This document shows, in pieces, positions 163-62,231 of a DNA stretch of 64,000 nt. The notes under the pieces are model-generated. The model made no database searches. It was given only the letters and a program-made list of their open reading frames with translations, and had not been told where the DNA came from. The DNA is from Boothiomyces macroporosus (Eukaryota > Chytridiomycota > Chytridiomycetes > Rhizophydiales > Terramycetaceae), in contig JADGKB010000016.1 of NCBI GenBank assembly GCA_027604185.1, positions 117,886 through 181,885 of the forward strand, read 5' to 3'. The first letter of the stretch is position 1; every line of letters begins with the position of its first letter. A program made the position numbers and the translations under genes.

Positions 163-639
163 TAAAATTCGTCTTCTTTTTTACTTCAGTAATCTCGCTG
201 CGATTTTCCACTTTCTCTTCCACTTGCATTTTCAACTTGAGCAGCTTTTGTTTTTGAATGGATTCTTGTGGTGAATAATTCTTTGCGTTATCCAGTCTCA
301 TCCACTGCTCATCGATTATATGAGAATGGTGCGTGTATTTCTTTGGTGGTGGTGGGTTTACTTTGATGCGTTCATACAAAGCTGGTGGCATCACCGTCTT
401 GTTTTTCCTAGCACGTTGCGATGCTTTTACCAGTTCTTTATTAGCGGATATTCACCTTGTAATGTCATGGTATTTTTATATCCCTTAGATAGGCTGTTTT
501 CCAAGTCTACATCTGTGGGTACATAGTCTGCGATACCCAACTTTTTTGGTGTAGTTGCAAACCTTTTTTCAGCTGTACTAGACCGTTTTTCTTCCATTGC
601 TGGTTTATCATTGATTGGTGCCAATGCTGGCTGCTGCAT
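134..639 (-). CDS. Small basic protein of unknown function, two exons
   Basis: The reading starts at ATG 637-639, runs to 431, and resumes after a 23-nt intron (408-430, GTAAAA...CTAG) to the stop at 134. Removing the intron restores one frame of 160 codons across a Trp codon (LIKNW then KNKTVMPPALYERIK). The protein is rich in Lys, Pro and Gln, has no membrane segment or signal peptide, and ends in a charged, probably helical region with many Lys and Glu. I do not recognise the family. It is convergent with the partial gene at the window edge and lies tail-to-head with the DnaJ gene on the same strand. The intron type matches those of the conserved genes in the window, which supports it as a real gene. 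Confidence 0.55.
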
Positions 640-838
640 TGGTTTTTTTACTTTGAAAGATTAAGACGTGATGTCACTCAGGACGTGTTGGATTTCCCAC
701 ACACTCTGATTAATTAAATGGTTCATAGCTTACAGTATATCAGCCGACGACTATGATGTGAAAGGTCTCAAGTTATACACGCTTTCATTTAACGCGCTAA
801 TTGTTTGGACACCAAATTTGAAGCAAATATTTATTATT

Positions 839-1933
839 TTACAGAATGCTTGCCAATGATTGTTTTTGTTGATTAGTGAGATTAGGAAGAATAACATTCA
901 CGACCACACGCAAGTCTCCTTTTGAGCCTGGCATCTTGGAAATAGGCATGCCCTCTCCTTTGACCACGATTTCACTTCCAGGTTGGCACATACTATTTTG
1001 GCCACCACTGACAGTAATTGTTCTGCCATCAAGTTGGGTAATCTGCTTGGTAAATCCATTGTAAGCTTGTAGTAAAGTAATGTTAACTGTTGTTAGTAGA
1101 TCATTGTCTTGTCTCTTGAAAGTAGGGTGTTCCTTTTCTTCAATCACAAATTCAAGATCCGTAGGGCCTTCAGGAGTTTCGTCTCCTTCACCAGCAAACT
1201 TGATCTTTGTGCCAGCTTTCCAGCCAGGTTTGAGATTGATTGTCAAGATCTTTTCTGCTTGAGAAAACTGTCCATTTTCAATGACTTTACGGGTAACTTT
1301 TAGTCTTTTTTCGCCTCCAGTGTACAGATCGTTTAGTGAAACTGGGAATGGTCGTTGAACTACGGGATTCTCTTGTCTTCTAATGTGAGGCCCTTCATCA
1401 TACCTTTTGCGAGATCCAGACATTCCACTGGTATTTGAAAACCCTCTTGGCATGCCTCCCATTCCTGGCATACCTCCACCCATTCCTGGCATTCCGCCAA
1501 ACGATGCGAATCCACCAGGGATTCCTCCAAAGCCACCCATATCATCATCGTCGCCGCCTGCTCCTCCAAATGCAGAGAAGAAAGTCTTGAAGATATCTTC
1601 AGGGTTTGAAGGACGGAATCCACCGCCAGATGAGCTAAAGCTAAATGTACCGCCTGGGAATCCTCCAGCAGGGAAACCACCTCCAGGGCCTCCTGGGCCG
1701 CCAGCACCTTTTAGCCCTTCTTCACCAAACTGATCATATACTGCCCTCTTATTCTTGTCGGATAGCACTTCATATGCTTCACTGATCTCTTTGAATTTCT
1801 TGTCTGCCATTTCCTTGTTGTCAGGATTTCTGTCTGGATGCCATTTCAAAGCTAGTTTACGATAGGCTTTCTTTAGCGCGTCCTCGTCGACGGTTTTTGG
1901 AACATCTAGAATTTTGTAATAATCTTTTCCCAT
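839..1933 (-). CDS. Type II J-domain co-chaperone (DNAJB/Sis1-like)
   Basis: This 364-residue protein is an Hsp40 that should stimulate the ATPase of cytosolic Hsp70 and hand over unfolded clients. Residues 1-70 form a J domain with the diagnostic HPD ([10 protein letters not shown]) and the closing [11 protein letters not shown] long Gly/Phe and Gly/Met-rich region follows at roughly 75-170 (repeated GGMPGMGG). The C-terminal half is the two-lobed substrate-binding domain ([48 protein letters not shown]). There are no CxxCxGxG zinc repeats, so it is type II rather than type I. It has no ER signal and no CaaX end. No intron is needed. The start is the first Met of the J domain at 1933. The length is normal for DNAJB4/Sis1-type proteins. 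Confidence 0.93.
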
Positions 1934-2604: not shown

Positions 2605-4003
2605 ATGGATTCTAGCGATGAAAGAGATTCTGATCAAGAAACTGTTGATTCCTCAGTTGATAACAGTATTAGAAGGTCAAGTAGATTCAGAAAGAAACTC
2701 AGAGTAGATGTTCAGCAGCCGGTAACACCTAAACTGCCAGAGCCAAGGATTCTTGGGGTTCAGTCTTGTTTGGAAAAATACCAGTTTGTTTATAAGCTTA
2801 CTACCGGGTTTAGTATCGGTGATATCTGCTGGACCTGGGACTCTACGCAAGAGCTGTGGCCTTGCCTGGTGGTTGCCAAAAGAAAGCTAGCCACTACCTC
2901 TGCTGTATCCAGCCCAGCAGTTCCAAAAACCCAGCTAGTTGAAAGCAAAAACATTTCTGAAGAACCTAAACCTAGCAGTGACAAAGTTAAAATGGAAAAT
3001 GGAGATCCTGTTAAGCAAGAGCAAGACCTTCAGGTTGAAGTGAATATAAAAGCGTAAACGCCAGCTTAATTATAGAGAAGAGAAGGAACTAAACGACCCT
3101 GAAAAATCAATACTAGAAAGTCATGCGACAATGTTTGAAAAAGACAAGGAGCTCGAGGGTTACTCGCTACTCCTCAACAAGCGAATTTCAGCATATTACC
3201 AAGATAGATACGAATATTATGTTCAACTACTTCCTTTATCAACCATTGAAACGGACTTGGAGGCAGAGTGGCCCTCCACCACAACTGACATGATATTGAA
3301 ACAAGATTCAAACTTGGCACCTCTGTATTACTCTTCCGCACCGTATTGCGATGATGTACCTAGATATAATAGAGCTCTTATTCAGTCCATAAGCATTAGA
3401 TCTTCATGGGCGGTTCCGTGTCCCAAAATTGAAATTTATCCAGTGCCAGACTTTCAAGAAATAGTTACACCTCCAAACCATACAATTCCAGTTGTTTTGT
3501 CAAATAGCAAAGTAACAGGAAATTACCAAGGAGCAAAGTTGACCCAGAATGTGATAGAGCCTCAGGTGGCTGCGAAATTGAAAGGATCTGTTGTGGACTT
3601 GACTAGCGACTTGCTTACGCAGGGTATATCACACTGGAAGTCGAAAGGATCTATAAAATACACATCCAACAGTGACAAACCAAGCGCGAAGCCGCAAACG
3701 CCATTTCCTATATCAAAAGAGTACCAATATTGCAGATTAGGTTCAGAAATAATCAAGATTAATGATACAGTTATATTGACGAATAATTTACCGATGCAGG
3801 TCAAGAGAATCAAGCAGCAAGACGATTTGCTGATTTTTGATGGAGTGCTAATCTCTACTAGCACAAAATCCGTGACTGTTGATTACAGAATGGTCAAGTG
3901 TAGATATAATGTGGTGTTTTTGGGGGGCGAAAGTCTGGTTTCTGGACAGGTGTGGTGGGATGGTAGTACTATTGTGAAGGTACATCGTAAAGTATACGCC
4001 TAA
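2605..4003 (+). CDS. Clr2-like / chromatin-associated protein, two exons
   Basis: Two frames join through a 22-nt intron (3054-3075) to give 458 residues. The N-terminus is acidic then basic (SSRFRKKLRV). A PWWP- or Tudor-like stretch follows (GFSIGDICWTWDSTQELWPC). The C-terminus has a beta-rich module beginning YCRLGSEIIKINDTVIL that resembles the phrase seen in fungal Clr2-type silencing proteins (LGAE-x-I-x-V-G-D-x-V-x-L). In fission yeast Clr2 belongs to the SHREC histone deacetylase/remodelling complex. The Clr2 assignment rests on this short resemblance and the general layout, so it is tentative; a generic chromatin-reader protein is the alternative. The start is the first ATG, and an AATAAA lies just past the stop. 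Confidence 0.6.
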
Positions 4004-4321: not shown

Positions 4322-4850
4322 ATGGTACGCATTTGCTAATTCAAGTCCAGCGGAGTAGGAGTTTCAAACCAAGTGCTACAAACTTATGAAGATATGAAAT
4401 TGGGTAGAAAGTATGCATACATTGTCTTTGCAATTCAAAATTCTACTGAAATCATTGTTGAGAAAACAATGACTACTGAAGAGGCTTCCAAATTATCTAC
4501 GCCGGAAGTTTACGAATCGTTCAAATCATCTATTCCAAAAGATGAAGCTCGTTACGGTGTGTTTGACCTTGAATACGACTTGGGCCAGAATGGAGTTCGT
4601 TCCAAATTGATTTTCATTGTTTGGTAATTGGCACTAACGCAGGAACCCAAGCGAAGGTAAAATCAGAAGCAAAATGATTTACGCTTCTAGCAAAAAGGCT
4701 CTTAGGGATCGTAATTATGTTTTGATTGTAGGTCTGGATGGAATTCACCAAGAAGTTCAATGCAATGATTTGGATGAATTGGCATTCGAATCAGTGTTTG
4801 AAGTTGTAGCACCAAAAGGCGCTACTTTTAAAACCGCTAAAGAAGAATAA
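4322..4850 (+). CDS. Cofilin/ADF actin-depolymerising factor, four exons
   Basis: The 155-residue protein is a single ADF-H domain that severs and depolymerises actin filaments in the cytosol. Exon 1 is only the ATG (4322-4324). Three tiny introns follow: 21 nt at 4325-4345, 19 nt at 4624-4642 (GTAATTGGCACTAACGCAG) and 21 nt at 4711-4731. The joined product starts MSSGVGVSNQVLQTYEDMKL, has the cofilin signatures YAYIVF, KDEARYGVFDLEY, LIFIVWNPSEGKIRSKM and YASSKKALRD, and ends KTAKEE. The regulated Ser follows the initiator Met as in other cofilins. Its length is slightly above yeast Cof1. An intron right after the start codon is known in other ADF genes. Confidence 0.93.
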
Positions 4851-5319
4851 ATCAGTTTTATCGCAAGAATTATCTATTCTCTCTTTGATATTCTGTATGG
4901 TAATCCGTTAGCCTAGTTCAAAGTAATCCAGCGCCACTAAAGCTACTTTACAAAGTAGAATTGATTGAACTGGCTTTTATCTACTATATGGGATGAACTG
5001 CACCTAAAATATTAGGTTGTAACAGTCCGAACCATTTTATTCACAATACTTGAAATCATATATGCGGCTGACTACATTCGCGTCCCTGAGTCTGAAATTC
5101 AGTGTTGTTCAAATTAGGATATGGTGGTACAATATTATCACGGGAAATATTTGGCACACTGAAAAAGACAGTTGCGAGTATGGTGAAGAGCATTGATTCG
5201 AGGAAACGATCCGCCTACTGCTACATGATCACTGTCCAATGAAAAGGATTTGCTTGTAAAGCAAAGTTGAAACTGTCCAAAAATGTAAGGTCCCGAAATA
5301 GAATTTTTTAAAATTTCCA
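4851..5319. other. Intergenic, nothing recognised
   Basis: I see no coding stretch, repeat or RNA gene here. It should contain the cofilin terminator and the promoter of the 7TM gene that starts at 5320. Confidence 0.4.
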
Positions 5320-8810: not shown

Positions 8811-10406
8811 ATGAGTACGCCGATAAAGAGAGAAAACTCTGGATCCGAAAGCGCAGATGAAGTCGTCAACGATCCAAATGCAGCCGCTGCAATGGCATTC
8901 TCACAACCGCAGCGTCCCAAATTCCAAATATCCAGACATTCAGCTTCACAAATTGACCGGAGATATTCAATGATAGCGCCTGGGTACGCAGCGAATTCAC
9001 CAGATAAAGTTACACTTCCGATTTACGAACTTGATAAACGATCGTCTAGTGTCAGTAACCAATCAATGAATATTCAATGTGATGATAATTCGCCAAATTT
9101 CAGGACGATTGCAGCCAGATCTTCTCCAACGATTGATACGAATATTCCTTATGGATCGTTACGCTCTGAACCACAAATTTCGCAATCTTTTAATGAATCG
9201 CCAGAAATGGAAGAGGAACAGCCAGCCCAAGATAGACTGGACTTGGATGACATCGCGAGTTACTTTGAAAGCATTAAAGGGGTCAAATATCAATCTAGCT
9301 CTAGCGTAATAATGACTAATATAGCTGTCTGGACCGCCCAGATATACATTCTATTCTGAAAAAACTGGTGTTGTGAGAGCAAGTTCGTTTTCAACGCTGG
9401 ATTTGTCAAGCGACGAAATGTCGATTAAAGAGATGCTAGAATCTGGCAAGTTTTACTAATCTAGGCCCATTCTGGATCGATTGCTTGTCACCTACATTGA
9501 TAGAGATGAACGATATCAGTAAATTGTTCCACTTGCACCCATTGACAAACGAAGATATTCAGACTTCTGACACAAGAGAAAAGTGCGAAGTATTCGAAAA
9601 GTACTTTTTTGTAGTTGTGCGAAGCTTTGAACAGGATCAATACAAGAATTCTTTTATGCAGCCAATTACAGTCTCGATAGTTATATTTAGGGAGTGTATA
9701 TTATCGGTATCTTTTATTAATCTAGTTTCAGTACAGCCCTACGTTTCACTCCAGGAATGTTCGATCAAGGATAGATCAGCTGTCTGCTTATGGACTGCAC
9801 GTAACAACAGAATGGATAAACTATGCGTTGATTGATGATATTACAGATTCATATATGCCATTCATGAAAGTGATTGAACTGGAAGTAGATACGATAGAAG
9901 AGCTCGTGCTTATACTAGCACAGGAATCCGAACAGTCAGATATGCTTCGAAGAATAGGGATAGTTAGAAAAAGAGTTATGCAGTTGTTGAGATTAATGAA
10001 CACCAAGGCAGATGTAATCAAAATGATTATTAATAGATGTCTTGATACCTCAATCGGAAATGAAACCCGATTCTATCTTGAAGATATTCACGACCATGTA
10101 CTGACAATGATGCAGAACTTGTCCCACTACGAAAAATCATTGGCACGATCTCATTCAAACTATTTAGCACAGATATCTATAGATATTACACAGGCATCTA
10201 ATAGGACATCTGACACTGTGATGCGTATGACCCTGCTAGCGTCCATCCTAGTTCCGCTAAACATTATCACCGGTCTTTGGGGCATGAACGTTCGTGTTCC
10301 TGGGCAAGACAGAGACGATCTCACATGGTTCTTTTCAATCATATGCACAATGTTTTTCCTTATCACTGGTACATATTACTTTGTTAGAAGAATGAAGCTG
10401 GTATAA
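8811..10406 (+). CDS. CorA-family magnesium transporter (Alr1-like), four exons
   Basis: The 512-residue product is a pentameric Mg2+ channel of the plasma membrane type. Three 19-nt introns are removed: 9306-9324 (GTAATAATGACTAATATAG), 9446-9464 (a GC-AG intron, GCAAGTTTTACTAATCTAG) and 9707-9725 (GTATCTTTTATTAATCTAG). The joins restore RYTFYSEKTGVVRA, SGPFWIDCLSPT and CILSFQYSPTFHSRNV. The long Ser-rich N-terminus, the acidic and helical cytoplasmic funnel (YALIDDITDSYMPFMKVIE) and two C-terminal membrane helices are typical. The pore motif GMN is in LNIITGLWGMNVRVPG. Alr-type proteins are often longer at the N-terminus. The start is the ATG 28 bases after the upstream gene's stop. Confidence 0.93.
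9446..9464 (+). other. 19-nt GC-AG intron in the CorA gene
   Basis: Removing GCAAGTTTTACTAATCTAG joins LESG to PFWIDCL in frame. A GT donor 4 bases downstream would leave a 15-nt intron and the wrong frame. The donor GCAAGT is the usual strong form of the minor GC class, and a TACTAAT branch-point-like sequence precedes the acceptor. Confidence 0.75.
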
Positions 10407-10735: not shown

Positions 10736-11719
10736 ATGGACGACGATGAAAGGCTTTCAGCGAAATACCCCAAATTATCTCCAGAACTATACCCATGTAA
10801 AGACGGTAAGGATAGTTTTATCCAGGCAGCACGGTACCGCTTTCGGACGGAAGAGTGTTGGGGTACAAGGAATACGTAGGCAAGGATACAGATACAAGCA
10901 GCCTGCCAGTTATTACTCTCTTTCCTGGGATTCCTGGAACGAGGTTATTCTCACATCCGCTAATTGATGCGGGCAACTTTTCAGGATATAGATTTATTGT
11001 ATTGGAGCGACCTGGGTTTGGATTGTCAACCGCCAAGAAAGGAAGAAATATTAGAGATTGGGTTAACGACGTATTGGAATTTATGGACTATATGAAAATA
11101 GACAAAATGTCTGTTATTGGGTACAGTGCGGGTGGACCTTACGCTTTGGCAGTAGCGCATGCGATTCCACACCGTTTAAACAAAGTTGCCTTGATTAGCT
11201 CGATATCCCCTAGAGAAGCACAAAATGTGTACGCTGGGATGCCATGGCTCTTTAAAATTGCTTGGTTCTGTACTGCTTATGCCCCGTCTATTGTCAAATA
11301 TTTTGCAAGCAGGGTAAACCGAGATGAGATGCTGTATGATCCCGTTAGATTCCACAGGGCAGATTGTGATCTTTCTCCCAAGTGTGATGTCGATGTTCTA
11401 TTGAATCCGGACGTTGAATACATGTTTTGTGCTAGTACAATGGAAATTTATTCCCGTAGCCAAATGGACACTGAAAGCGAAGAGTATGCTTTATGGGGTC
11501 GCGACTGGGGATTTGAACTCAAAGGTAAACCATTCTCATTTAGAAATCAAAGCAGAAGTTAGTGTTTGGCAAGGCGCATTGGATCCAGGAACAACTGTAC
11601 CAATGGCAGAATACATTGCAAAGAAAATCGACTGTCCATTAATAGTCAAGTATGGCCATGGTCATATGCTCTATTTCTCAATGTTTGAGCAGATTACCAG
11701 ATGGCTGCTAGTTAAATAA
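10736..11719 (+). CDS. Alpha/beta hydrolase, three exons
   Basis: Two tiny introns, 10806-10825 (GTAAGGATAGTTTTATCCAG) and 11525-11543 (GTAAACCATTCTCATTTAG), join into a 314-residue protein. The core is an alpha/beta hydrolase fold: oxyanion region LFPGIPGTRLF, strand YRFIVLERPGFGLS, nucleophile elbow VIGYSAGGPYALA with Ser in GYSAG, the acid probably in WQGALDPGTTVP, and the His in VKYGHGHMLYFS. The substrate cannot be told from sequence; relatives act on esters, epoxides or lipids. The N-terminus (MDDDERLSAKYPKLSPELYP) has no signal peptide or membrane helix, so a cytosolic enzyme is likely. The start is the only ATG ahead of the conserved SDGRVLGYKEY. Confidence 0.88.
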
Positions 11720-11774: not shown

Positions 11775-12999
11775 TTAGAATGGATTTTGTTCTCTATAAT
11801 GGTGTTGCAATTTGTTTGCTTTTTCACCCACTCTGGCATCATACAACTGTTGTTTCTGCATAATCATTTTGCTAGCTTTGTGCTTTTGCTTCAATTCAAG
11901 CTTTCTTTGCTGAACAACGAGAGCCTGAGAGAATTGCGCTGGTGTAGAGAATCCAAGTGTCTTGTAGTTGTTGCTCAATCTAGAGATCATTTCTGGGTCT
12001 CTCATTGAGCCAGGTACTACAGCCACTGGTCGAATATTTTGCTTCCAATATTTTCTGAATTGACGGTTACCAATTCTAACTCCAGAAGGTAGAATCATCT
12101 CAGTATCGTCAGCAGTGATAGTGGCGGTTCTATAATTAACTAGTAGGTACCTATCAACATTGCTCCAATCGTCAGCATCATCGTTAGAATCAGCTTCGCC
12201 ATCTTCATCTTCCCATTCATCATCTTTTTCAAAATCATAGTATTCGGCAACATCGTCTTCATCCCCATCTTCGTAAGGAATTTTGCAGTGCCCTTTGCTA
12301 ATCTAAATTAGAGATTTGTATTACCATATGATCCCTGACTGCTTCCAAAGAGTGCAATGCTCTTCCTTTTCCGTTACAAAATATACAGACATTAGCAATA
12401 GATATTTTATCCGCAAGGTATTGAATTAATCCTTTCAAGTCAGCCAAGTGCTCGATATCAGGAATAAAGAAGGAGTGCTTGTTGGCCATATGGTCCATTG
12501 ATTCTTCAAATGAATGAGACTTGTGGGCGCAGAATAAGCAATCGGTCTCTTCCAAGCGGACAGAGTTTTTGATTTTCTCGTCCAAAATGTCATTTACTTC
12601 TTGTTCCGTTTGGGCTTCTCCCAACTTTTGCTTCCAATTGGTCTTTTCTACAGTGTTTTCCTTTGCGACTCTTTCTTTAGGCACATGGTTCTTTGCCTTT
12701 TCCAAATGTTTTTTTGACAAACAATGGCTCTTGTATTGATTCTCGCTAGAGTACTCTTTCTTGCAAGGCTCACAGTAAGCGCTGAATTCCTGCTTGTCCA
12801 ACTCTTGCTGTTGCTGTTGACTAGTGAGCTTTTGATTGAACGCTTCAAACGAAACCGCAGGCAACTCGACAACTTTTCTTTTTAAATTATAACGGTGCCA
12901 ATCGGTGCGCATATGATCCCTTTGTAGCTGCGCTGTTTCGAATGCGACTTGGCACTAGGATTAATTTGGTTCTACTGATAAGCAAGTGAAAACTGACAT
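11775..12999 (-). CDS. REI1: Rei1/ZNF622-like 60S ribosome maturation factor, three exons
   Basis: The 393-residue product is a cytoplasmic zinc-finger protein that helps recycle Arx1 and mature pre-60S subunits. A 21-nt intron (12955-12975) splits the first zinc finger: MSVFTCLS joins to CQVAFETAQLQRDHMRTDWH, rebuilding C-x2-C...H...H and the family phrase HMRTDWHRYNLKRKV. A second intron of 22 nt (12303-12324) joins RDHM to ISKGHCKIPYE. Three more zinc fingers follow (YCEPCKKEY, CLFCAHKS, CIFCNGKG), then an acidic stretch and the conserved tail LPSGVRIGNRQFRKYWKQN. Length and order match the family. The start is the ATG just ahead of the first finger. Confidence 0.94.
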
Positions 13000-13248: not shown

Positions 13249-14570
13249 ATGGCTGACGTTATTATTTACGGTGCAACTGGATACACAGGAGTAAAGATTT
13301 GTCAAGAATTCGCATTGAACCCGCCAAAATCATGGATCATTGCAGGGAGAAGCAAAGCAAAGCTTGAAAAGCTTTCAAACGAATTGAAATGCTCAAACCC
13401 ACCAAAAGTTGTAGTCGCAGATTTGCACGAACTTGATTTTATCAAGGGAGCAAAAGTATTGATTAACTGCGTTGGTCCGTTTAGATTGTACGGAGAACCA
13501 GTCGTCAAGGCTTGTGTAGAACATGGTGTGAATTATATCGATATTTGCGGGGAAACCGAGGTTATCGAAAAAGTAACTAGAGTTAACTTTAGCTCTACGC
13601 TGACTACAACCAATTAGCAATCGACAAGCGAATCTCTATCGTGCCAGCCTGTGGCTATGACAGTGTTCCTGCAGATTTAGGGCAATGGTACACCAAGCTT
13701 CAATTCCAAAAGCAACAAGCTATCTGCTCAACTATTGAAATGATTGTAAAGTTTCATGCTGGGAAATCTGGAATTACAGGGAACGCGACAACATTTGAGT
13801 CTGCAATCCTTGGGTTTGCGAGGTAATTATTACTTATGTAGTGTCGACAACTTGCGCCAGCTTCGCAAAAAGACTCATCGATCAGTACCTACTATTGGGA
13901 GATCTCTTCATGTTTACAGAAATCCTAGATGGGATAAACGTGTAGATTGCTGGACTGGTACTCAATAACTAACATAGTTCCTGCTGCTGTAGCGGATGTA
14001 CCGTTGGTCAAACTAGGTCAGCAAATGATTGAAAATCACCATGATGCTTACAAGAAAGGTGTTCTTTACAACTTGTACAAACCGCCCCACGTTACTCCGG
14101 TTCATTTTGCTGGCTACTTTGGTTTAACATCCTACATCTCTGTCCTATTTCTGTCTTGGATTGGTTTCCTCTTGAACACTTCAAAATGGCTCACACCGTT
14201 AAGAAAGTTGCTGATTAGATTCCCAGCGTTCTTTACTTTTGGGGTATTTAAAAAAAGTGGCCCAACCGAAGCGCAATTGCGGGAAGGAGGTTTCACTACT
14301 ACTTTAATAGGCCATGGATTTAGGAAAGGATCCGACTATAATGGCGACACTAATGTGAAAATTGTTACTGCCATCACTGGACCAGAAGCAGGGTATATTA
14401 CAACTTCCAGATGTATCGTAAGTTGTGCAACATGCTTTTTGTCCAGAACTGAGTCTGAACAACTTCCATTCGGAGTATTGACTCCTGCAGCTGCGTTCTC
14501 CAATGTATTTGACTCTTTGCTCTCTCGCCTCAGTGCAAGCGGTATACATTTTCAAGTTATTGAACAATAA
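13249..14570 (+). CDS. Saccharopine dehydrogenase-like oxidoreductase (SCCPDH), copy A
   Basis: Three introns (13573-13592, 20 nt; 13823-13841, 19 nt; 13958-13977, 20 nt) are removed to give 420 residues that align along the whole animal and fungal SCCPDH layout. The N-terminus is a Rossmann fold (MADVIIYGATGYTGVKICQE). VIEKLYADYNQLAIDKRISI, ACGYDSVPADLG and LIRFPAFFTFGVFKKSGPT are family signatures, and the C-terminus GPEAGYITTS...GVLTPAAAF is typical. Relatives associate with lipid droplets or mitochondria; the substrate is not established. A hydrophobic stretch (FGLTSYISVLFLSWIGFLL) may anchor it to a membrane. It lies at the left edge of the 6.4-kb duplication, whose unit starts at 13268, inside codon 7. 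Confidence 0.92.
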
Positions 14571-14628
14571 ATGCACTATAGGAGTTTATTAAATATAAAT
14601 TTGGGTTCGAATACATGGTCGACTAAAA

Positions 14629-16407: not shown

Positions 16408-16529
16408 AAAGATATTAAATTTTACTTGATTTATTTATTGCGTCAGTGTACATTTAATACTGACAAATTAACAGTGCACGTCAAATTAACGCGACATTAA
16501 TATAAGGAATTAGAAATACAACATGGGAA

Positions 16530-18452: not shown

Positions 18453-18564
18453 AAAGTTAGCGGAGTTTCAAAAATATGTTGTTTGTTTATCAACTCCAAA
18501 ATATTAATATACGCGTCTCGAGGAATAAATAGCAATGTTGATGTGGATAAATCAAGGAGCTCGC

Positions 18565-35270: not shown

Positions 35271-35291
35271 ATTTTAGTGATACGAAAACCT

Positions 35292-52259: not shown

Positions 52260-53880
52260 TTATTTTCGCTCTTTTACAGAAATAATCATTGGTTTGTTCA
52301 AGCTATAGGTAATGGACTGCATCCCTTCATATTCAAATTCCGGGTCCAAAAGAAACTCAAATTTCTGAATTAAGCCAATCATTATAATTTTTGCTTCAAT
52401 GATTGCCATTTTTTGCCCAATACAATTGTGGGGGCCTGGCATTAGTCAACATTACCATCGCTGAATGGCATGAAGGAGCCGGGAACAATAGGGCCGTTCC
52501 AACGGTCAGGGTTGAATTCTAGTGGATTCTTGAATAATTTTCCGTCAAGATGTAAACCTCGAATGAATATTCCGCAACGAGTCCCTTTCTTGATGTTATA
52601 ACCCAACACTTGAGTATCTTCCTTGGCGGCCCGGAATACCTGTGAAACTACTGGGTGTAAGCGTTGCGCTTCCTTGAGGGTGTTATCCAGATATCTAGAT
52701 TAATTGGTAAGGCATACTTTAGATTGTTGATCACTTCAATCATATTATCATTTTCAAAATCGACAGATTTAACTTCATCATATAATTTCTGACATATTTG
52801 AGGGTTTCGACACAGTTCAAGAAGCATAAACGTCATTGTATGCGCCGTTGTTCTACGTTAGTTGTTTAATACTCATGTCCAGCAAAGAAGAATCCCACCA
52901 TTTCACCGTACACTTCCTCTTTAGTAATGAGCTACATTAATACCGTTTACCCCCTTTTCTTGAGATATTAGCAAGCGATGCAAAACGTCCATCTCCCATC
53001 CTTCCTGCCCTTGTTCATTATTTCTAATCTTTCTTAGCCGCTCTTCGGATAGCGTATTTAGCAAGTCATACACTTGTTTCTTGGCAGACGCAACTTCAGG
53101 AGAGGTTATATCACAGCGCAATAGCTTGTACATGAAACTTGGAAAGGCAGATCTCTTGCTGTTAATAATACTTACATAGATGAACGGTTTTGCAGACATG
53201 TTGTCCAGGTTATCCCAACTTCCAGCCCCACCTTCTTCTAGTGCTTCAATTGAACGCATCGGATGATTAAAGGCTACTTGGCCAATAACATCCAGAGTAA
53301 TACATTTGAACATGGTTCTCGCATCCACCTTTAGTTCTTTTTTCTTTTCAAGCTCCAAAAGGAATTTCTCTCTGATTTCAAGAGTGGAGGACTGCGATAC
53401 TCTTGCTGCATGTCTCAAATGGGTAGGCCCAAAAGCCGGTTGGAGTAGTTTGCGATGCTTTTTCCATAAATCGTCTGAAGGAAGAAGGAAGAGAGCATAG
53501 TCCAGCAACCCCACCATTCGCTTGCGTGCAAAATCAGTCTTTCCGAATAAAGTAGTGTCGGTAACAATTCTTTTAGCTTCATTAGGATCTTTGACAACCA
53601 CCAATCGTCCAGCTGGCCCTACATAGCTAAATATCGGTCCATACTTTTTGGAATTAACTTCAGTGAAAAGGTGGATTTGCTTTCGGAAGAGATATCTGGT
53701 TAGAAATGTTTACTTGTAAAAACTCAAGGTGCCGAATATTGGAACTGGAAGCGGCCCTGGAATTGCATACTTTGATAACCTTTGCTTATAGTAGAACCAC
53801 ACCAGGTACAAAATCAGCAAGGCAGACTTGTGCTCCGCGAGATACTTGATCTTGTGAATCAATACTTCAGCTACAGACAT
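52260..53880 (-). CDS. Cytochrome P450, six exons
   Basis: Five tiny introns are removed (53696-53713, 18 nt; 52932-52950, 19; 52853-52872, 20; 52695-52717, 23; 52436-52455, 20), giving 506 residues. An N-terminal membrane anchor (SALLILYLVWFYYKQRL) precedes the hinge AIPGPLPVPIFG. The joins restore the I-helix oxygen site FFFAGHETTAHTM, the K-helix ExxR (TLKEAQRLHPV) and the heme loop FSDGPHNCIGQKMA with the Cys thiolate. It is an ER mono-oxygenase needing P450 reductase; the layout is like CYP4/CYP3-type clan enzymes. The substrate is unknown. The 18-nt intron GTAAACATTTCTAACCAG is the shortest in the window. Confidence 0.93.
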
Positions 53881-53967: not shown

Positions 53968-56774
53968 TTAGAGATTGGTGAAAATCCAAGACTTTACATC
54001 GTCAGTATCCCTCTTTGCGTACCGCAGAGAAACTTCAAGGGAGCTGATGCGATTAAGGACAGTTCGCTGGATTCCATTAATTTCTTTGATTCTCTCTGAT
54101 GGCTCTGGCAAATCCTTTCCTTCTGACCAACTTTTCAGTTCAATGAGAAAGTCTTCATTAGTTTGCCCAGCACATGCTGAAAAAATCATATTCAAGAGCC
54201 CTAGAGTTGAAGAGTAATTCTTGTGTAGCACCTTCCAGTTGGATGTGAACCATTTCCAAAGCAATTCCCGGTTGGCCAACAATAGAGATCTTGGAGCATA
54301 AACCCCAAGTCCCCGAAGAACCAGTGGGATGTTTTGAGAAGAGATGAGGTCTTGGTTGAATACCATATCTAATGCCCTGTTGACAAAGTTTGGATCATTC
54401 ACACCACCGATTGCGAGTAAAGCAGCACGGACTTCAACAGGGTTGTTTCTTTGTGCAAGCTGAAGAATGTAGTTAAAGTCCTTTTCAACTTCCTTGGATT
54501 CATTCATTCCAACTGCTAATGCAATTTCGTAAATGTTGGCATGGATAGAAGGGATTTCCCCATCTCGGTATTTGCTGTACAAATCCTGTAATACTTTTAC
54601 AGTTCTGCTGTTAATTAAAAAGTTACTTTTGCTCACCAGCTAGAGCACAGGCTTTGATGGCAAACTTTCTAATGATGCTGATGGCGTTGTCTTCTTTTGG
54701 ATCGAACTCATATCCATATTTCGCAATTACTCTTGAAAAGATAGATTTTTGAATGGCGTGAATAGCATTTACCACTTCAGAGTTATCAGTCCAAACACGC
54801 AACAAACCTTCAAGGCAGTCGTCAATCTGTTCCAGGACCAGTCTGTTTGATTCATTCACAAATGCTTGAACGAGCGCGAGTGCATGAGAGGTCTTGGACA
54901 ATCCGGCGGCAGCCAAGGCAAAGCTGTTTGATACCAATAAGCACTTGTCTGGAACCGTCAAAGCATCGACATTTGCAGAGACAACCGAGGAAAGTTTGTC
55001 GATATGTTCTTTAGAGTATTGAACCCTGTAGAACCCAGTTGCCTTGTAGTTTACCAACCAAAATTCAGTGCCACTGGCATAAGGGATGGTTATCGTCCCT
55101 TCCTTTTTGTCCAGCAGATAATTGGTTACTTTTCCATCACTTGTGTAGATGGTCAAGGGAACGCTCCAAATAGCTGCCTCTTCTTCAGCCGTCAAGTCGC
55201 CAGCAATCAAAAACCAATTTTGTTTGAAATTGAGAGTTAAAGTCTGGCTTTCGGTGTTGTATGTTTCACTAACATGCACAAGTGGATATCCCATTTGGCA
55301 GGTCCAGTTGTTCATGAGACTTTTCACATCAGTACCAGAGACTTGAGAAAGCGAATCCCACAAGTCATTGGTGACAGTGTTCTTGTATGCGTGTTTCTTC
55401 AAGTAATTTTTGACGCCTTCCTTGAATGCAGCTGAACCAAGGTAAGCCTCAAGCATTCTGATGACAGAAGCACCTTTAGAGTATGAAATTCCATCAAATA
55501 CTTCATTCACTTCCTGAGGAGTATTTACTGTGACTTCGATAGGGTGACTGTTTCTTTCTGCATCAAGTTCAAGTGCATATCCGAATCTATATATCACAAA
55601 ATTGCCAAAGTTATCCCACTCTGGGAATAAGTGATCAGTTGCAAATGTCCCAATGAATGTTGCGAATCCTTCGTTCAACCACAAATCATTCCACCAATCT
55701 AATATTAGTTTTATGTACTCATGGTAACCAAGTTTCCAAACCATTGATGAGCAAGTTCGTGGCATACCGTGCTAGCAATTCCCCGCTTGAATTGATCACC
55801 AGATTTATCTTTGTCATACAAGATGAGAATTTCCGTGTACGTAATCAATCCCCAGTTCTCCATACCTCCAACAGATAACTCTGGAACAGCAATTTGATCG
55901 CACTAGATTAGAACTTTGATACTTTTGGAAGTGGATACGGTATACCAAAGTACTCTGAAAAGAACTCCAAAGTCTTTACTCCAACCTCTAGTGCGAAAAC
56001 ACCCTCCATCTGCTTTCCTTTTGGAGTGTAGACTCTGCACTTAATCGGCTTTGCTCCTTCAACTTTAGGGTTAGCGATTGCTTCCACATAGTCAAACTCT
56101 CCAACACACATGGCAACTAGATAGGTACTCATGATTGGTGTAGAGTCAAATTTGATGATTTTCAGGTCCTTGTTGTTGATTACAGTGTTCTCTTCCTTGA
56201 CAATATTCATGTTGGATAGACAGGTGAGATTGCGGGGCACATAGAGCGTGATATCGAACACTGCTTTCATGTTTGGTTGATCGAACGATGGGAAACATGA
56301 GCGGCACCCGCTCGATTGGAACTGAGTGGTAACCATATACTTTTTTACTCCTGCTTCATCAACATATTGGGTGCGATAAAATCCATTCATATCATCCCCA
56401 TGAATACCAGCAAATTCTGCAAACAAAATGACTTGCGAATCCGCCGGTATTTCGCTGCCAAACTCAAATATAATCAAATCATCCTTTTCGCCATATGAAA
56501 CCGATGCAGCTTCCTGAGTATTGCGATGAGTTGTAGGATCCTTTGGCCAGGAAACCGATTCGATTCCATTCTTTGTGCGCAACAAGGAGACTGAAGACTT
56601 GATGATTTTCAAATCCTTTCCGTTCACAATAATCTTGTTTGTGCTTTCCAAAACCGAAATGCTGGGGTTAAATCTTGGTCACCTTATTGAAACGCTTCCA
56701 GAAAAGTTTGGAGACTCTACGCTGGGAAAGAGCGTCACATAGTAGTTGGTTGGCAAGAAGCTCCTGTTCAACAT
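53968..56774 (-). CDS. M1 zinc aminopeptidase, downstream module (B)
   Basis: With introns 56662-56682 (21 nt), 55903-55922 (20), 55699-55718 (20) and 54608-54626 (19) removed, this is 908 residues from ATG 56774 ([20 protein letters not shown]). The M1 motifs are VPELSVGGMENWGLI (GxMEN, here GGMEN), [20 protein letters not shown] (HExxH) and [11 protein letters not shown] (third zinc ligand). An ERAP1-like helical C-terminus follows and ends DDVKSWIFTNL. It removes N-terminal residues from peptides. The frame is open upstream into module A, so it may not be a separate gene; either an internal start at 56774 or a double protein is possible. Confidence 0.9.
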
Positions 56775-56811
56775 TGTTTTGGAACCTTGCTTCTTGTGGT
56801 TATTTATAGGA
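54014..56811. repeat. 2,798-bp direct tandem duplication, unit B (M1 aminopeptidase)
   Basis: The stretch recurs at +2,798 (56812-59609). The unit begins in the codons for SLRYA near the C-terminus and ends 37 bases before the start codon. The copies are nearly identical but differ in two clusters, around the GxMEN motif and just after the third zinc ligand. Confidence 0.95.
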
Positions 56812-59572
56812 TTTGCGTACCGCAGAGAAACTTCAAGGGAGCTGATGCGATTAAGGACAGTTCGCTGGATTCCATTAATTTCTTTGATTCTCTCTGATGG
56901 CTCTGGCAAATCCTTTCCTTCTGACCAACTTTTCAGTTCAATGAGAAAGTCTTCATTAGTTTGCCCAGCACATGCTGAAAAAATCATATTCAAGAGCCCT
57001 AGAGTTGAAGAGTAATTCTTGTGTAGCACCTTCCAGTTGGATGTGAACCATTTCCAAAGCAATTCCCGGTTGGCCAACAATAGAGATCTTGGAGCATAAA
57101 CCCCAAGTCCCCGAAGAACCAGTGGGATGTTTTGAGAAGAGATGAGGTCTTGGTTGAATACCATATCTAATGCCCTGTTGACAAAGTTTGGATCATTCAC
57201 ACCACCGATTGCGAGTAAAGCAGCACGGACTTCAACAGGGTTGTTTCTTTGTGCAAGCTGAAGAATGTAGTTAAAGTCCTTTTCAACTTCCTTGGATTCA
57301 TTCATTCCAACTGCTAATGCAATTTCGTAAATGTTGGCATGGATAGAAGGGATTTCCCCATCTCGGTATTTGCTGTACAAATCCTGTAATACTTTTACAG
57401 TTCTGCTGTTAATTAAAAAGTTACTTTTGCTCACCAGCTAGAGCACAGGCTTTGATGGCAAACTTTCTAATGATGCTGATGGCGTTGTCTTCTTTTGGAT
57501 CGAACTCATATCCATATTTCGCAATTACTCTTGAAAAGATAGATTTTTGAATGGCGTGAATAGCATTTACCACTTCAGAGTTATCAGTCCAAACACGCAA
57601 CAAACCTTCAAGACAGTCGTCAATCTGTTCCAGGACCAGTCTGTTTGATTCATTCACAAATGCTTGAACGAGCGCGAGTGCGTGAGAGGTCTTGGACAAT
57701 CCGGCGGCAGCCAAGGCAAAGCTGTTTGATACCAATAGGCACTTGTCTGGAACTGTCAAAGCATCGACATTTGCAGAGACAACCGAGGAAAGTTTGTCGA
57801 TATGTTCTTTAGAGTATTGAACCCTGTAGAACCCAGTTGCCTTGTAGTTTACCAACCAAAATTCAGTGCCACTGGCATAAGGGATGGTTATCGTCCCTTC
57901 CTTTTTGTCCAGCAGATAATTGGTTACTTTTCCATCACTTGTGTAGATGGTCAAGGGAACACTCCAAATAGCTGCCTCTTCTTCAGCCGTCAAGTCGCCA
58001 GCAATCAAAAACCAATTTTGTTTGAAATTGAGAGTTAAAGTCTGGCTTTCGGTGTTGTATGTTTCACTAACATGCACAAGTGGATATCCCATTTGACAGG
58101 TCCAGTTGTTCATGAGACTTTTCACATCAGCACCAGAGACTTGAGAAAGCGAATCCCACAAGTCATTGGTGACAGTGTTCTTGTATGCGTGTTTCTTCAA
58201 GTAATTTTTGACGCCTTCCTTGAATGCAGCTGAACCAAGGTAAGCCTCAAGCATTCTGATGACAGAAGCACCTTTAGAGTATGAAATTCCATCAAATACT
58301 TCATTCACTTCCTGAGGAGTATTTACTGTGACTTCTATAGGGTGACTGTTTCTTTCTGCGTCCACATGAAGAGCATATCCAAACTCATCAATCACAAAAT
58401 CACCAAATATGTTCCACTCTGGGAATAAGTGATCAGTTGCAAATGTCCCAATGAATGTTGCGAATCCTTCGTTCAACCACAAATCATTCCACCAATCTAA
58501 TATTAGTTTTATGTACTCATGGTAACCAAGTTTCCAAACCATTGATGAGCAAGTTCGTGGCATACTGTGCTAGCAATTCCCCGCTTGAATTGATCACCAG
58601 ATTTATCTTTGTCATACAAGATGAGAATTTCACGATAAGTAATCAATCCCCAGTTTTCCATCGCTCCAAAAGATAACTCTGGAACAGCAATTTGATCGCA
58701 CTACATTAGGGCTTTGATACTTTTGGAAGTGGATACGGTATACCAAAGTACTCTGAAAAGAACTCCAAAGTCTTTACTCCAACCTCTAGTGCGAAAACAC
58801 CCTCCATCTGCTTTCCTTTTGGAGTGTATACTCTGCACTTAATCGGCTTTGCTCCTTCAACTTTAGGGTTAGCGATTGCTTCCACATAGTCAAACTCTCC
58901 AACACACATGGCAACTAGATAGGTACTCATGATTGGTGTAGAGTCAAATTTGATGATTTTCAGGTCCTTGTTGTTGATTACAGTGTTCTCTTCCTTGACA
59001 ATATTCATGTTGGATAGACAGGTGAGATTGCGGGGCACATAGAGCGTGATATCGAACACTGCTTTCATGTTTGGTTGATCGAACGATGGGAAACATGAGC
59101 GGCACCCGCTCGATTGGAACTGAGTGGTAACCATATACTTTTTTACTCCTGCTTCATCAACATATTGGGTGCGATAAAATCCATTCATATCATCCCCATG
59201 AATACCAGCAAATTCTGCAAACAAAATGACTTGCGAATCCGCCGGTATTTCGCTGCCAAACTCAAATATAATCAAATCATCCTTTTCGCCATATGAAACC
59301 GATGCAGCTTCCTGAGTATTGCGATGAGTTGTAGGATCCTTTGGCCAGGAAACCGATTCGATTCCATTCTTTGTGCGCAACAAGGAGACTGAAGACTTGA
59401 TGATTTTCAAATCCTTTCCGTTCACAATAATCTTGTTTGTGCTTTCCAAAACCGAAATGCTGGGGTTAAATCTTGGTCACCTTATTGAAACGCTTCCAGA
59501 AAAGTTTGGAGACTCTACGCTGGGAAAGAGCGTCACATAGTAGTTGGTTGGCAAGAAGCTCCTGTTCAACAT
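56775..59572 (-). CDS. M1 zinc aminopeptidase, upstream module (A), fused in frame to module B
   Basis: Starting at ATG 59572, introns 59460-59480 (21 nt), 58701-58720 (20), 58497-58516 (20) and 57406-57424 (19) are removed. The module has 906 codons and no stop: after EVSLRYA it reads [13 protein letters not shown], which is the old 5' leader of module B translated, and enters [12 protein letters not shown] of module B. The whole would be 1,814 residues. Its active site is [25 protein letters not shown] and [11 protein letters not shown], so it is intact, with the canonical GAMEN. It lacks the native C-terminal 16 or so residues. Ordinary relatives are single-module, so this would be a double aminopeptidase. 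Confidence 0.88.
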
Positions 59573-59808: not shown

Positions 59809-60201
59809 ATGAGCAATCCAACAGAATGGCTACGAGATGATCATGGGCTTTTAAACCAGTCAGAAAAACACTTGTCGATTATTGAAAAGATAACTTGGAG
59901 CCATTATTATCGTTTTAAAATAAACGGTGTCTCAAAGTTGACTTCTCTTTATGATGAACCTGTCTAAATCTAGTGTCAGCATAGATGAACAGCCAAACTA
60001 AAGACAAATACCCAATACAAAGTAATGAATGTTCCATCTAAACTGAAAGCCGTGGAACAAACACTGAAAACATTCAATTGTGGGTATCGTACCTTTTATA
60101 CCCACATCTATCGCCAATTCGTAGCTTACTCGTCCCTAACGAACTTGTGCAAGTATCTGAGCAAGCACGCCAGCAACTATTACCACACATTAAACGTATG
60201 A
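59809..60201 (+). CDS. Candidate three-exon gene, 116 residues, unknown
   Basis: Three short open pieces join in frame through introns at 59962-59984 (23 nt) and 60031-60049 (19 nt, GTTCCATCTAAACTGAAAG). The product starts MSNPTEWLRDDHGLLNQSEK and ends LSKHASNYYHTLNV. It has no signal peptide or membrane helix and no family I know; Tyr, His and Lys are frequent. It is divergent from the aminopeptidase gene with 236 bases between the starts, and convergent with the kinase gene. The first donor (GTCTAA) is weak, so that boundary may be off. Confidence 0.4.
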
Positions 60202-60247
60202 GAAATTATAACCTACCAAACGTAAAACCCAAAAAACTACTAATTTA

Positions 60248-62231
60248 TTAATTTGTCCACTGCAACTTGTTCACCAGCTCTTTGATAAATTCATCTGCAT
60301 TCCCAGATTTTACTGTGATTTTTAAAGCGTGTAATTTCAGCAGCCATATTTTACATAATTCAATTTCAACCTCGGTTTTGTCATTACTTAGATTAAATAT
60401 ATAGAATTCAGGTACTTTTTTCACGACCAGTCTATAGCTTTGCTGTAAATCTACCAAAGCCCGATGTAGATCTTGGAACATTACTGGTGGTTCGAGTGTA
60501 GATGAAAAGCCCTTTCTACAGGATATTTTCATTGTCCGAATGAGTTTAGGTGGTTTGTGGATTCGGTGCCATTCGTTTATTTCTTCATAATTCAGTTTGG
60601 TGGTATCTTCAACAAATACTTTGCTCATTCTGTCAATCACCGATAGTTCCCTGAGCTTGTCTTGTGTGTGATGGAGAAAAGGTGTGAAACTGGTGCTTTT
60701 CCTACGACCAAAAATGTCACCACTTGATTCTCTACGTGGAGTAAGAGGTGGTTTCGTCGTGATGCCAAAGTGGTTTATAGTGTGGCTTCTAGTTATTTGC
60801 GCCAGTTCTGGATGCAAGGAACTAACTTCGCTGTTTGTTTTTTCATTTGGTGTGGGGATACTACTTATTGTAGAGTAGGATGGACTGGTTACTTGGAATG
60901 AAATGGAACTGGAAGATAATTCATCAATTGATGGAGACGTTGAGGGTGGAGAATACAATCTATCTGTACTTGGCTGCACGGTGATACTCTTTTTTCTCTT
61001 TAAATTGATTATATTGTGGTTTTTGCTACTGCGTCTTTGCCTGTCTTCGAATGTTTCAACCCCTTTTTGCAACTGATTGTGCGCGTTGATGCTGTATACT
61101 GTAATATCATTTTCTCTTGTTACACTAGATATCGCTCTTCCTAAAGATTCGACTGTTGTAATTGGCGGTTGAATCTTTTCTGGTAGTGTAGAGCAGCCTA
61201 TATTCACCCACCTACCTCTCCTTATCCCATCAATGGTAATCCGGTTGACAGGATCAGCAGTAAATATGAGATTGATTAAATCCACCAGTTCTGCAGAAAA
61301 ATGTGAGGGTGTAGTGTATTTAACTTGCTTGATCTTTTTGTACAATAGTTTTACAGACTCGGCAGAAAATGGCAACTCTCCTGCAATCATAGCATAGAGT
61401 ATCACTCCCATTGCCCATATATCGGCCTTTGCCCCATGGTATACATCCCCTTGAATAATTTCAGGCGCTGCATACGATGGTGTACCGCAGAATGTCTACA
61501 TTAATTTGGATTACATTCATAGAGTCATTGCCAGAGAATGTCTTTCCCAATCCAAAATCTGAAATTAGAATATTATTTTGTTCATCTAATAGAATGTTTT
61601 CCAGCTTCAAATCTCGATGTATTACCTTGGATTCATGGATAAAATCCATTGCTGATACAATTTGTCTAAATAGCCGTCGTCCTTCAATTTCTGTCAAGTA
61701 AGTATTTTTGCTAATATGGCCCCCTAAATCGCCTCCATATGCATAAGCCCTGCTTTAGCATGTAATTACATTACGATATACACGTTTTCTGGCGATTCTA
61801 TTACTTTGAAAATCTTGATTATGTTTGGGTGATTGAAGCGCATTAGTAGCAGGGCTTCTTTTTGGAAATTGGACAAGTATTCGAGCTGTGGAATTGGAAC
61901 AGGCTCCTTTTTCTCTTCTACTTTAATCTTGGAGATAAATTCCGAAAGGTCCAGTCCATCGCCTTCCAAGACAGGGTCTTGCAGCATTTGATCTAGAGCC
62001 TTTTGGTAAATTTTTTGCGTTGCTTTTCTTATCATTGCTTTTTCTATGTTATCTTGCTTTTTTTTCTTGTTTATTTCAATTTCTTGCAATTTCCGTTTAT
62101 TCATGATTTTAATTGCGACCTTGTCAGCCAAAAGTTACTTTTTCCCCAGATGGTAGATGCCTTCCAATTTTTACTTTTCCGAAAGCTCCCTGACCTATCG
62201 TTTTACCAATTTGGTAGTTTGATAATTTCAT
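60248..62231 (-). CDS. Serine/threonine kinase, CAMK/SNF1-like, with possible KA1-type tail, four exons
   Basis: Introns at 62120-62138 (19 nt), 61750-61769 (20) and 61496-61514 (19) are removed to give 641 residues. The kinase domain starts near residue 5: GQGAFGKVKIG (Gly loop), GEKVAIKIMNKRK (catalytic Lys), HRDLKLEN, SDFGLGK and CGTPSYAAPEIIQGDVYHG. About 70 charged residues are inserted between the beta-3 Lys and the alpha-C Glu (QKEALLLMRFNHPNI). After the lobe come a long Ser-rich linker and a C-terminal domain (VEIELCKIWLLKLHALKITV) resembling the KA1 membrane- or autoinhibition module of AMPK-related kinases. Hsl1/Kin-type kinases are the nearest in layout. A polarity, stress or cell-cycle role is inferred. 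Confidence 0.9.

Follow-up and report, generated by a model that had tools for sequence, protein, structure and literature searches.

Evidence for spliceosomal introns of 19–22 nucleotides as the standard size in the chytrid fungus Boothiomyces macroporosus

Introduction

Can the short segments that interrupt conserved genes in one stretch of the Boothiomyces macroporosus genome be spliceosomal introns of only about 20 nucleotides (nt), and is this the size of introns throughout this chytrid (order Rhizophydiales, family Terramycetaceae)? The stretch, referred to here as the window, comprises 64,000 nt, bases 117886-181885 of contig C16 (181,885 bases), in an assembly of 15,203,306 bases and 216 contigs. 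A protein search with the cytochrome P450 encoded in the window returns a deposited B. macroporosus match alongside one from Boothiomyces sp. JEL0838, with Terramyces after them. As set out below, we consider it very likely that the segments are genuine U2-type spliceosomal introns with a standard size of 19–22 nt, their length presumably being set by the footprints of the splicing machinery.

Ultrashort introns in the genes of the window

The curated set holds 45 intron places in 12 genes, or 35 distinct introns after duplicates are collapsed (Table 1), in agreement with a preliminary description of the window, which had counted about 35 distinct introns of 18–23 nt in at least twelve genes and whose three quoted examples (53696-53713, minus strand, 18 nt; 9306-9324, plus strand, 19 nt; 52436-52455, minus strand, 20 nt) are exact. 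One intron is 18 nt long, ten are 19 nt, nineteen 20 nt, ten 21 nt, four 22 nt, and one 23 nt. If retained, 34 of the 45 would shift the reading frame, 8 would introduce a stop, and 3 would add a silent in-frame insert. Splicing yields 15 gene models (the 12 genes and three duplicate copies), of which 12 have an uninterrupted reading frame between ATG and stop; the other three are a gene cut by the window edge, an aminopeptidase copy without a stop of its own, and a duplicate without a start.

The removal of the segments can be compared with related proteins at many joins. Alignments to solved homologues are gapless at two of the three cofilin joins, at all four joins in one of the aminopeptidase copies, and at the three joins of asparagine-tRNA ligase, while the six P450 joins are gapless against CYP3A4 in three cases and have a gap of one to four residues nearby in the other three. 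Pfam matches cross joins in the CorA-type transporter, protein kinase, zinc-finger, and hydrolase genes. The joins of the saccharopine-dehydrogenase-like gene fall outside its Pfam match, and the genes at 1-639 (three introns) and 2605-4003 (one intron) have no Pfam match, the gene finder being the sole source of these four introns. Comparison of the two aminopeptidase copies gives 3 differences in the 62 positions of three masked introns and 62 differences in 2652 other positions. All three intron differences lie in one intron and spare its GTA, CTAAT, and TAG, and the fourth intron is identical; so small a divergence fits the intron model without proving it.

A narrow length class across the genome

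Length statistics were drawn from 264 kilobases (kb), consisting of the window and twenty 10-kb samples, which come from 20 contigs and include one taken elsewhere on the contig that holds the window. The gene finder scores codons together with a model of donor, branch site, and acceptor and is length-neutral between 10 and 150 nt (flat prior), the scoring favouring the branch motif and leaving spacing and length open; the decoy is the identical finder with its intron grammar reversed. Under the real grammar, 284 of 416 introns measure 17–24 nt (272 of them 19–22 nt), with 129 at 25–150 nt and 3 at 10–16 nt, whereas the decoy, which has no such peak, places 400 of its 466 introns at 25–150 nt, 20 at 10–16 nt, and the remainder at 17–24 nt (28 at 19–22 nt), leaving the 19–22 nt class about tenfold above decoy. 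Real introns longer than 24 nt are not in excess of the decoy in this sample, which marks the ultrashort class as the standard one; the preliminary claim of a genome-wide class, spliceosomal in form, in a fungus is supported as well. The same picture holds for the window alone (40 of 69 real calls at 17–24 nt against 15 of 112 decoy calls) and for the 20 samples alone (244 of 347 against 31 of 354). A second run of the finder, limited to introns of 13–40 nt, placed 318 of its 342 calls at 17–24 nt, hereafter the core introns, and each of the 20 samples outside the window contains some. Core introns occur at 2.07 per gene model among models with at least 450 nt of coding sequence, 43 of these 143 models being intronless, and at 1.39 per kb of coding sequence; extrapolating the finder's 1,204 introns per megabase (Mb) to 15.2 Mb would give roughly 18,000 genome-wide.

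The length class is also visible in the spacing of motifs, independently of any gene model. On both strands of the 264 kb, GTA...CTAAY...AG peaks at 19–21 nt, with 33, 35, and 16 occurrences against 1–13 per length at 22–60 nt, and GTA...TTAAY...AG peaks at the same three lengths with 38, 49, and 36; GTG donors and a CATAY control have no peak near 19–21 nt in this sequence. Genome-wide, the pattern GTAA-N(2-30)-CTAAY-NN-TAG matches 864 times and its reversed form 326 times; among the 100 matches listed, 82 have lengths of 19–22 nt although 29 lengths are permitted. It is very improbable that the segments are instead sequencing or assembly indels, or decayed genes patched by a permissive gene finder. 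Such an origin could draw on an exact 6,412-bp tandem repeat within the window, where the assembly may be imperfect, and on four window calls judged false, yet indels would not carry GTA...YTRAY...AG at fixed spacing, neither the decoy comparison nor the motif spacing would be explained, and taking the segments out leaves conserved enzymes intact.

Several points weigh against a genome-wide class of spliceosomal introns. The four false calls are one of them: a 13-nt intron at 8762-8774 would fuse two genes, 36-nt introns at 16715-16750 and at the duplicate place 23127-23162 would remove residues that match the human ligase, and a 34-nt call at 63919-63952 is weak. The sample was not drawn at random and covers about 1.7% of the genome, the counts come from a finder trained on the same 264 kb, and 46 of the 466 decoy calls also fall at 17–24 nt. 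The GT...AG ends are imposed by the search, though the length peak is not. Weaker bumps near 19–21 nt appear for GTT donors, AGT, YAATC, AATCY, and CTGAY, of which AGT is the donor shifted by one base and the last three overlap the branch-site motif; the 326 matches of the reversed pattern mean that this control is not clean. Excision itself is something we infer from intron anatomy and the machinery encoded. With these points considered, the ultrashort class can be called real with high confidence, and on the evidence here it appears to be genome-wide, with 19–22 nt the standard intron size in B. macroporosus.

Anatomy of the introns

The core introns share a simple layout: a GTA donor, about eight freer bases, a YTRAY branch site, two or three bases, and AG. 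Among the 318, donors are mostly GTAA (180), GTAT (45), GTAC (39), and GTAG (26), acceptors are TAG (212), CAG (59), AAG (40), and GAG (7), and 204 have YTAAY branch motifs (TTAAT 69, TTAAC 52, CTAAT 58, CTAAC 25); their A+T content is 0.705. The branch A lies at intron position 14 in 126, 15 in 144, 16 in 34, and below 14 in only 6. The branch motif of the preliminary description is retained, with its distance of 4–7 nt between branch A and AG corrected to 5 or 6 nt following the A and including the AG, as found in 283 of 318. Its GTA donor likewise stands as the general rule, the CorA-type transporter intron at 9446-9464 being GC-AG. Three GC-AG introns with GCAAGT donors occur among the 318 core introns and the 342 sampled calls (that intron, 1460-1480 of sample L006, and 4968-4988 of sample L019), and one more lies in PRP18 (L044). 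At donor position +5, T has a frequency of 0.42 and G of only 0.17, although the 5' end of U1 is the usual ACTTACCT.

U12-type introns have a ATATCCTT-like donor and a TTCCTTRAY-like branch site. The core introns carry the marks of U2-type introns, namely GT-AG or GC-AG ends and a branch motif with its A upstream of the AG, and the observed motifs look U2-like.

An apparently ordinary set of splicing parts

The genome was searched by family for U1, U2, U6, SF1, U2AF65, SLU7, PRP18, YJU2, CWC25, and ISY1, and all ten parts are encoded. U1 scores 68.8 bits, just below its cut-off of 69.5, and the U2 small nuclear RNA (snRNA) carries the branch-recognition stretch GTGTAGTATCTG; two U2 loci (L022 and L023, the second on a 20-kb contig) differ in sequence and have this stretch in common. 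U6 has ACAGAGA. The genome thus contains U1, U2, and U6 snRNAs that match the U2-type introns. CWC25 gives two equal matches, on contigs C49 and C100, with the N-terminal MGGGDLNLKKSWHP plug as in human. The PF04502 match is taken to be YJU2 rather than its sister SAF4, judging from the N-terminus, and the Cir_N match is taken to be CWC25, judging from the N-terminus and from comparison with human CWC25. The first 36 residues of the ISY1 model do not align to human ISY1, and the model has an implausible 1-nt exon there.

Work in yeast indicates that a branch-to-end distance as short as 5–6 nt could make some such factors dispensable. Loss of U2AF65, SF1, SLU7, or PRP18 is ruled out, all four being present, as is a loss of the CWC25 plug like that in Stentor. 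On the parts looked for, the spliceosome appears ordinary apart from RRM1 of U2AF65. These parts also bear on the idea that the segments are cut out of DNA, like the internal eliminated sequences of ciliates, or are removed from RNA by something other than the spliceosome. Uniform length and AT-richness do recall such elements, but the segments are present in the assembled genome and their GT-AG ends, branch motif, and canonical U1, U2, and U6 fit a spliceosome, making this idea exceedingly improbable.

A changed RRM1 in U2AF65

The preliminary description had suggested inspecting U1, U2, U2AF, and SF1 for loss of the reader of the polypyrimidine tract. No such outright loss is found, since all are encoded and the recognition stretches of U1, U2, and U6 are canonical; what survives of the suggestion is narrower, a U2AF65 whose RRM1 lacks two RNP1 aromatics. 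The protein was found by an exon-by-exon search at 230.7 bits, below the family cut-off of 310.3, and its identity is accepted because the spliced protein matches human U2AF65, aligning over RRM1-RRM2 and the C-terminal domain, with the N-terminal side aligning to a piece of fission-yeast U2AF59. Its gene holds four introns of 19–20 nt. RNP1 of RRM1 reads NKEHCHVEF against DKNFAFLEF in human, both aromatics being replaced by histidines that are encoded in one exon, just upstream of a 19-nt intron. The aromatics are presumably RNA-contacting residues of human U2AF65. Relatives were taken as the 120 best-scoring of 1337 matches in one search and of 477 in another, one being shared, which makes 239 in total and not a random set. 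Of the 234 listed relatives that cover the site, 232 carry F or Y at each of the two positions; the remaining two are B. macroporosus itself (P0121) and an environmental protein (P0124) with S and I. A search aimed at U2AF65 of Terramyces or another Boothiomyces listed no protein under those names that covers the site. RRM2 keeps its FxF in B. macroporosus.

The length of these introns could be explained as the summed footprints of the splicing machine. The donor element, at about +1 to +6, would be read by U1 and then by U6, a spacer of about 3 nt would follow, then the helix between U2 and the branch site, and the nearest downstream AG would be chosen after branching. The few bases that separate branch site and AG leave no room for a polypyrimidine tract, and the branch site and 3' end would therefore be chosen by SF1 and U2 and by the nearness of the AG; U2AF65 may be kept for protein contacts instead of reading pyrimidines there. 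Position 14, where the distribution of branch sites ends sharply, would represent the smallest lariat loop that the B. macroporosus spliceosome tolerates, a floor to which deletion would have worn the introns down.

A stronger form of this proposal treats the intron as one indivisible unit, with donor and branch site 14–15 nt apart, the AG directly behind, and no tract, recognised by an otherwise ordinary spliceosome in which RRM1 of U2AF65 has stopped reading pyrimidines and the protein works through contacts with SF1 and U2AF35. This is a tentative reading, to which we give somewhat less than an even chance. Against both forms, the loss of pyrimidine reading rests on two RRM1 residues while the RRM2 aromatics are intact, and intron size and the U2AF65 change are linked only as a correlation in a single named species. 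The intron class may equally well be real and the RRM1 change incidental drift unrelated to intron size, a view with about even chances; Globomyces and Kappamyces, the next named relatives listed, keep the aromatics, and the intact RRM2 fits drift as well, but the near-universal aromatics among the listed relatives point to a normally strong constraint, and drift leaves aside the lack of space for a tract in B. macroporosus. If the indivisible-unit reading were true, remodelling of CWC25 would be unneeded for introns of 19–20 nt, and position 14 would be the floor for a normal spliceosome.

Ultrashort introns in deposited gene models

The deposited B. macroporosus P450 (P0002) uses the same 18-, 23-, and 20-nt joins as the model presented here; it reads through the 21-nt intron at 53155-53175, which appears as VSIINSK, and lacks a stretch of 41 residues that contains the AGHETT motif. 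VSIINSK is also retained in P0001, from Boothiomyces sp. JEL0838. This raises the alternative that the segments are ordinary coding inserts or are retained in mRNA, an in-frame subset of 18 or 21 nt being translated, and 79 of the 318 core introns are indeed multiples of three. The other 239 would shift the frame, however, in-frame stops occur in 57 of the 78 multiples of three with known frame, and the Terramyces protein (P0003) is without VSIINSK, so that this alternative is very unlikely. A candidate signal of selection against stop-less introns of multiple-of-three length, drawn from the same 57 of 78 compared with 140 of 227 other introns holding an in-frame stop, was dropped, the finder being biased likewise.

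The deposited U2AF65 (P0121) has 98% identity over 98% to the model of this analysis, is fused behind a start carrying PF17136, and drops the segment MFLLPCHLLK, which is similar in Globomyces. The loss of segments or fusion with a neighbour in P0002 and P0121 is possibly due to the short introns.

Other features of the window and its surroundings

Table 1. Places of the curated introns in the window (positions count from the first base of the window; gene coordinates in brackets).
Position	Strand	Length (nt)	Gene	Support and remarks
62..81	-	20	Gene 1-639, no family	Gene finder; no homology support
117..137	-	21	Gene 1-639	Gene finder; in-frame stop if retained; no homology support
436..455	-	20	Gene 1-639	Gene finder; no homology support
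3054..3075	+	22	Gene 2605-4003, no Pfam family	Gene finder; frameshift if retained; no homology support
4325..4345	+	21	Cofilin (4322-4850)	Directly 3' of ATG; stop if retained
4624..4642	+	19	Cofilin	Gapless against yeast cofilin
4711..4731	+	21	Cofilin	TTGAT branch site; gapless against yeast cofilin
9306..9324	+	19	CorA-type transporter (8811-10406)	Frameshift if retained
9446..9464	+	19	CorA-type transporter	GC-AG; gene finder; CorA domain starts two residues past join
9707..9725	+	19	CorA-type transporter	CorA domain match crosses join
10806..10825	+	20	Alpha/beta hydrolase (10736-11719)	Gene finder
11525..11543	+	19	Alpha/beta hydrolase	Abhydrolase_6 match crosses join
12130..12150	-	21	REI1-like zinc-finger gene (11775-12999)	Gene finder
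12303..12324	-	22	REI1-like zinc-finger gene	zf-C2H2_2 match crosses join
12955..12975	-	21	REI1-like zinc-finger gene	Gene finder; stop if retained
13573..13592	+	20	Saccharopine-dehydrogenase-like, copy 1 (13249-14570)	Gene finder
13823..13841	+	19	Saccharopine-dehydrogenase-like, copy 1	Gene finder
13958..13977	+	20	Saccharopine-dehydrogenase-like, copy 1	Gene finder
16751..16771	-	21	Asparagine-tRNA ligase, copy 1 (16530-18270)	Gapless against human enzyme; stop if retained
17154..17173	-	20	Asparagine-tRNA ligase, copy 1	Gapless against human enzyme
17672..17691	-	20	Asparagine-tRNA ligase, copy 1	Gapless against human enzyme
19985..20004	+	20	Saccharopine-dehydrogenase-like, copy 2	Exact duplicate of 13573-13592; absent from calls of 13–40 nt run
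20235..20253	+	19	Saccharopine-dehydrogenase-like, copy 2	Exact duplicate
20370..20389	+	20	Saccharopine-dehydrogenase-like, copy 2	Exact duplicate
23163..23183	-	21	Asparagine-tRNA ligase, copy 2 (22942-24682)	Exact duplicate
23566..23585	-	20	Asparagine-tRNA ligase, copy 2	Exact duplicate
24084..24103	-	20	Asparagine-tRNA ligase, copy 2	Exact duplicate
42661..42680	-	20	Ankyrin-repeat gene (41645-43596)	Ankyrin repeats flank intron
52436..52455	-	20	Cytochrome P450 (52260-53880)	Gapless against CYP3A4; same join in P0002
52695..52717	-	23	Cytochrome P450	Gapless against CYP3A4; same join in P0002
52853..52872	-	20	Cytochrome P450	Within AGHETT motif; gapless against CYP3A4; segment absent from P0002
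52932..52950	-	19	Cytochrome P450	CYP3A4 alignment, one-residue gap near join
53155..53175	-	21	Cytochrome P450	In frame; read as VSIINSK in deposited proteins; insert absent from Terramyces P0003
53696..53713	-	18	Cytochrome P450	Four-residue gap against CYP3A4 near join; stop if retained; same join in P0002
54605..54626	-	22 (or 19, 54608-54626)	M1 aminopeptidase, copy 2 (53968-56774)	Gapless against human puromycin-sensitive aminopeptidase
55699..55718	-	20	M1 aminopeptidase, copy 2	Gapless against human puromycin-sensitive aminopeptidase
55903..55922	-	20	M1 aminopeptidase, copy 2	Gapless; 3 differences from other copy
56662..56682	-	21	M1 aminopeptidase, copy 2	GTG donor; gapless; stop if retained
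57403..57424	-	22 (or 19)	M1 aminopeptidase, copy 1 (56775-59572)	As copy 2
58497..58516	-	20	M1 aminopeptidase, copy 1	As copy 2
58701..58720	-	20	M1 aminopeptidase, copy 1	As copy 2
59460..59480	-	21	M1 aminopeptidase, copy 1	GTG donor; as copy 2; stop if retained
61496..61514	-	19	Protein kinase (60248-62231)	Pkinase match crosses join
61750..61769	-	20	Protein kinase	Pkinase match crosses join
62120..62138	-	19	Protein kinase	Gene finder; frameshift if retained

A tandem CAGCAG acceptor at 54605-54608 and 57403-57406 makes the length of one intron in each aminopeptidase copy ambiguous, the 19-nt and 22-nt versions lying one codon apart. The upstream aminopeptidase copy (56775-59572) reaches the in-frame ATG of the next copy without meeting a stop codon, and its last residues differ from those of the other copy. 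The 6,412-bp tandem duplication, 13268-19679 and 19680-26091, is without a single difference and may be an assembly artefact; it contains the second saccharopine-dehydrogenase-like copy, which has no start. Elsewhere, on contig C2, the matches listed include a set of five introns that is repeated identically at a distance of 42,596 bases, at about 270-306 kb and 313-348 kb, which suggests a much larger tandem repeat or an assembly duplication.

At 5320-6870 and 26229-45073, the window encodes several membrane-like proteins of about 500 residues, mutually similar by eye and mostly without predicted introns. The one that was checked matches no Pfam family; they are possibly a lineage-specific receptor or channel family. 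Two adjacent intronless genes lie at 31975-33258 and 33981-35270, the first with a nearly full-length Phosphoesterase (PF04185) match and the second similar to it by eye.

Discussion

Ultrashort-intron genomes have in common a single narrow length class, at about 15–26 nt, as the genome standard, and this is also found in B. macroporosus, whose introns appear to rank with the shortest known. The preliminary description had named a nucleomorph and some ciliates as bearers of such introns; this is correct and incomplete, as mikrocytids and, with slightly longer introns, dicyemids belong on the list. The nucleomorph of the chlorarachniophyte Bigelowiella natans has 852 introns of 18–21 nt (PMC2222250, PMC10245619), a nearly equal length range serving as standard class, but it is a relict endosymbiont nucleus with a reduced genome, in contrast to a 15.2-Mb fungal nuclear genome in which the ten splicing parts searched for are present. 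Mikrocytids, which are parasites with a reduced spliceosome, have introns of 16–17 nt (PMC10245619), similar in their narrow lengths and conserved sequence, whereas B. macroporosus keeps the parts looked for. The introns of dicyemids (26.2 ± 1.9 nt, n=16; PMC2222250) and of Paramecium and Nyctotherus (about 25 nt; PMC5014332) likewise form a short, narrow standard class, but are some 5 nt longer and belong to other lineages.

The ciliate Stentor coeruleus, with introns of 15–16 nt and conserved U1 ACUUACCU, U2 GUAGUA, and U6 ACAGAGA (PMC9505925), combines a uniform ultrashort class with conserved snRNA recognition stretches as in B. macroporosus. Its branch A lies at position 10–11 and a strong consensus is absent, however, while that of B. 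macroporosus lies at 14–15 within YTRAY. In Stentor, CWC25 is without its glycine-rich plug and the N-terminus of ISY1 is not conserved, which has been suggested to avoid a clash with the tight lariat (PMC9505925). The plug is intact in B. macroporosus and coexists with a loop 4–5 nt larger than that of Stentor; its loss would therefore be unneeded for introns of 19–20 nt. As to reduced or altered machinery, reported for Stentor and mikrocytids and not strictly defining, B. macroporosus gives a mixed picture, with the ten parts and the CWC25 plug present, an altered U2AF65 RRM1, and a modelled ISY1 N-terminus that does not align to the human one.

Chytrids are described as intron-rich and the mean intron of Cryptococcus neoformans, 63 bp, as relatively short, in passages that name a 20-nt standard class for no fungus (PMC8476143). 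Searches of an open library, covering this genus and family as well as short introns of fungi, yeasts and chytrids included, listed no fungal ultrashort standard class, and reports elsewhere are possible. One survey excluded introns below 30 bp in all species (PMC10639083), and surveys of this kind are therefore blind to an ultrashort class. With B. macroporosus, the few ultrashort-intron genomes on record come to include a fungus. What is new here is an apparently ordinary spliceosome, a sharp floor at branch position 14, and a changed RRM1 of U2AF65.

On the practical side, deposited B. macroporosus gene models lose conserved segments, as in the P450 and its 41 residues. Earlier descriptions of ultrashort standard classes concern a relict nucleus, parasites, and ciliates. 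B. macroporosus grows in culture. A fungus in which introns of about 20 nt occur throughout and the spliceosome appears ordinary would allow tests of the minimum distance between donor and branch site, of crowding between U1 and U2, and of the need for a polypyrimidine tract, and could help to establish the shortest intron that a normal spliceosome is able to remove.

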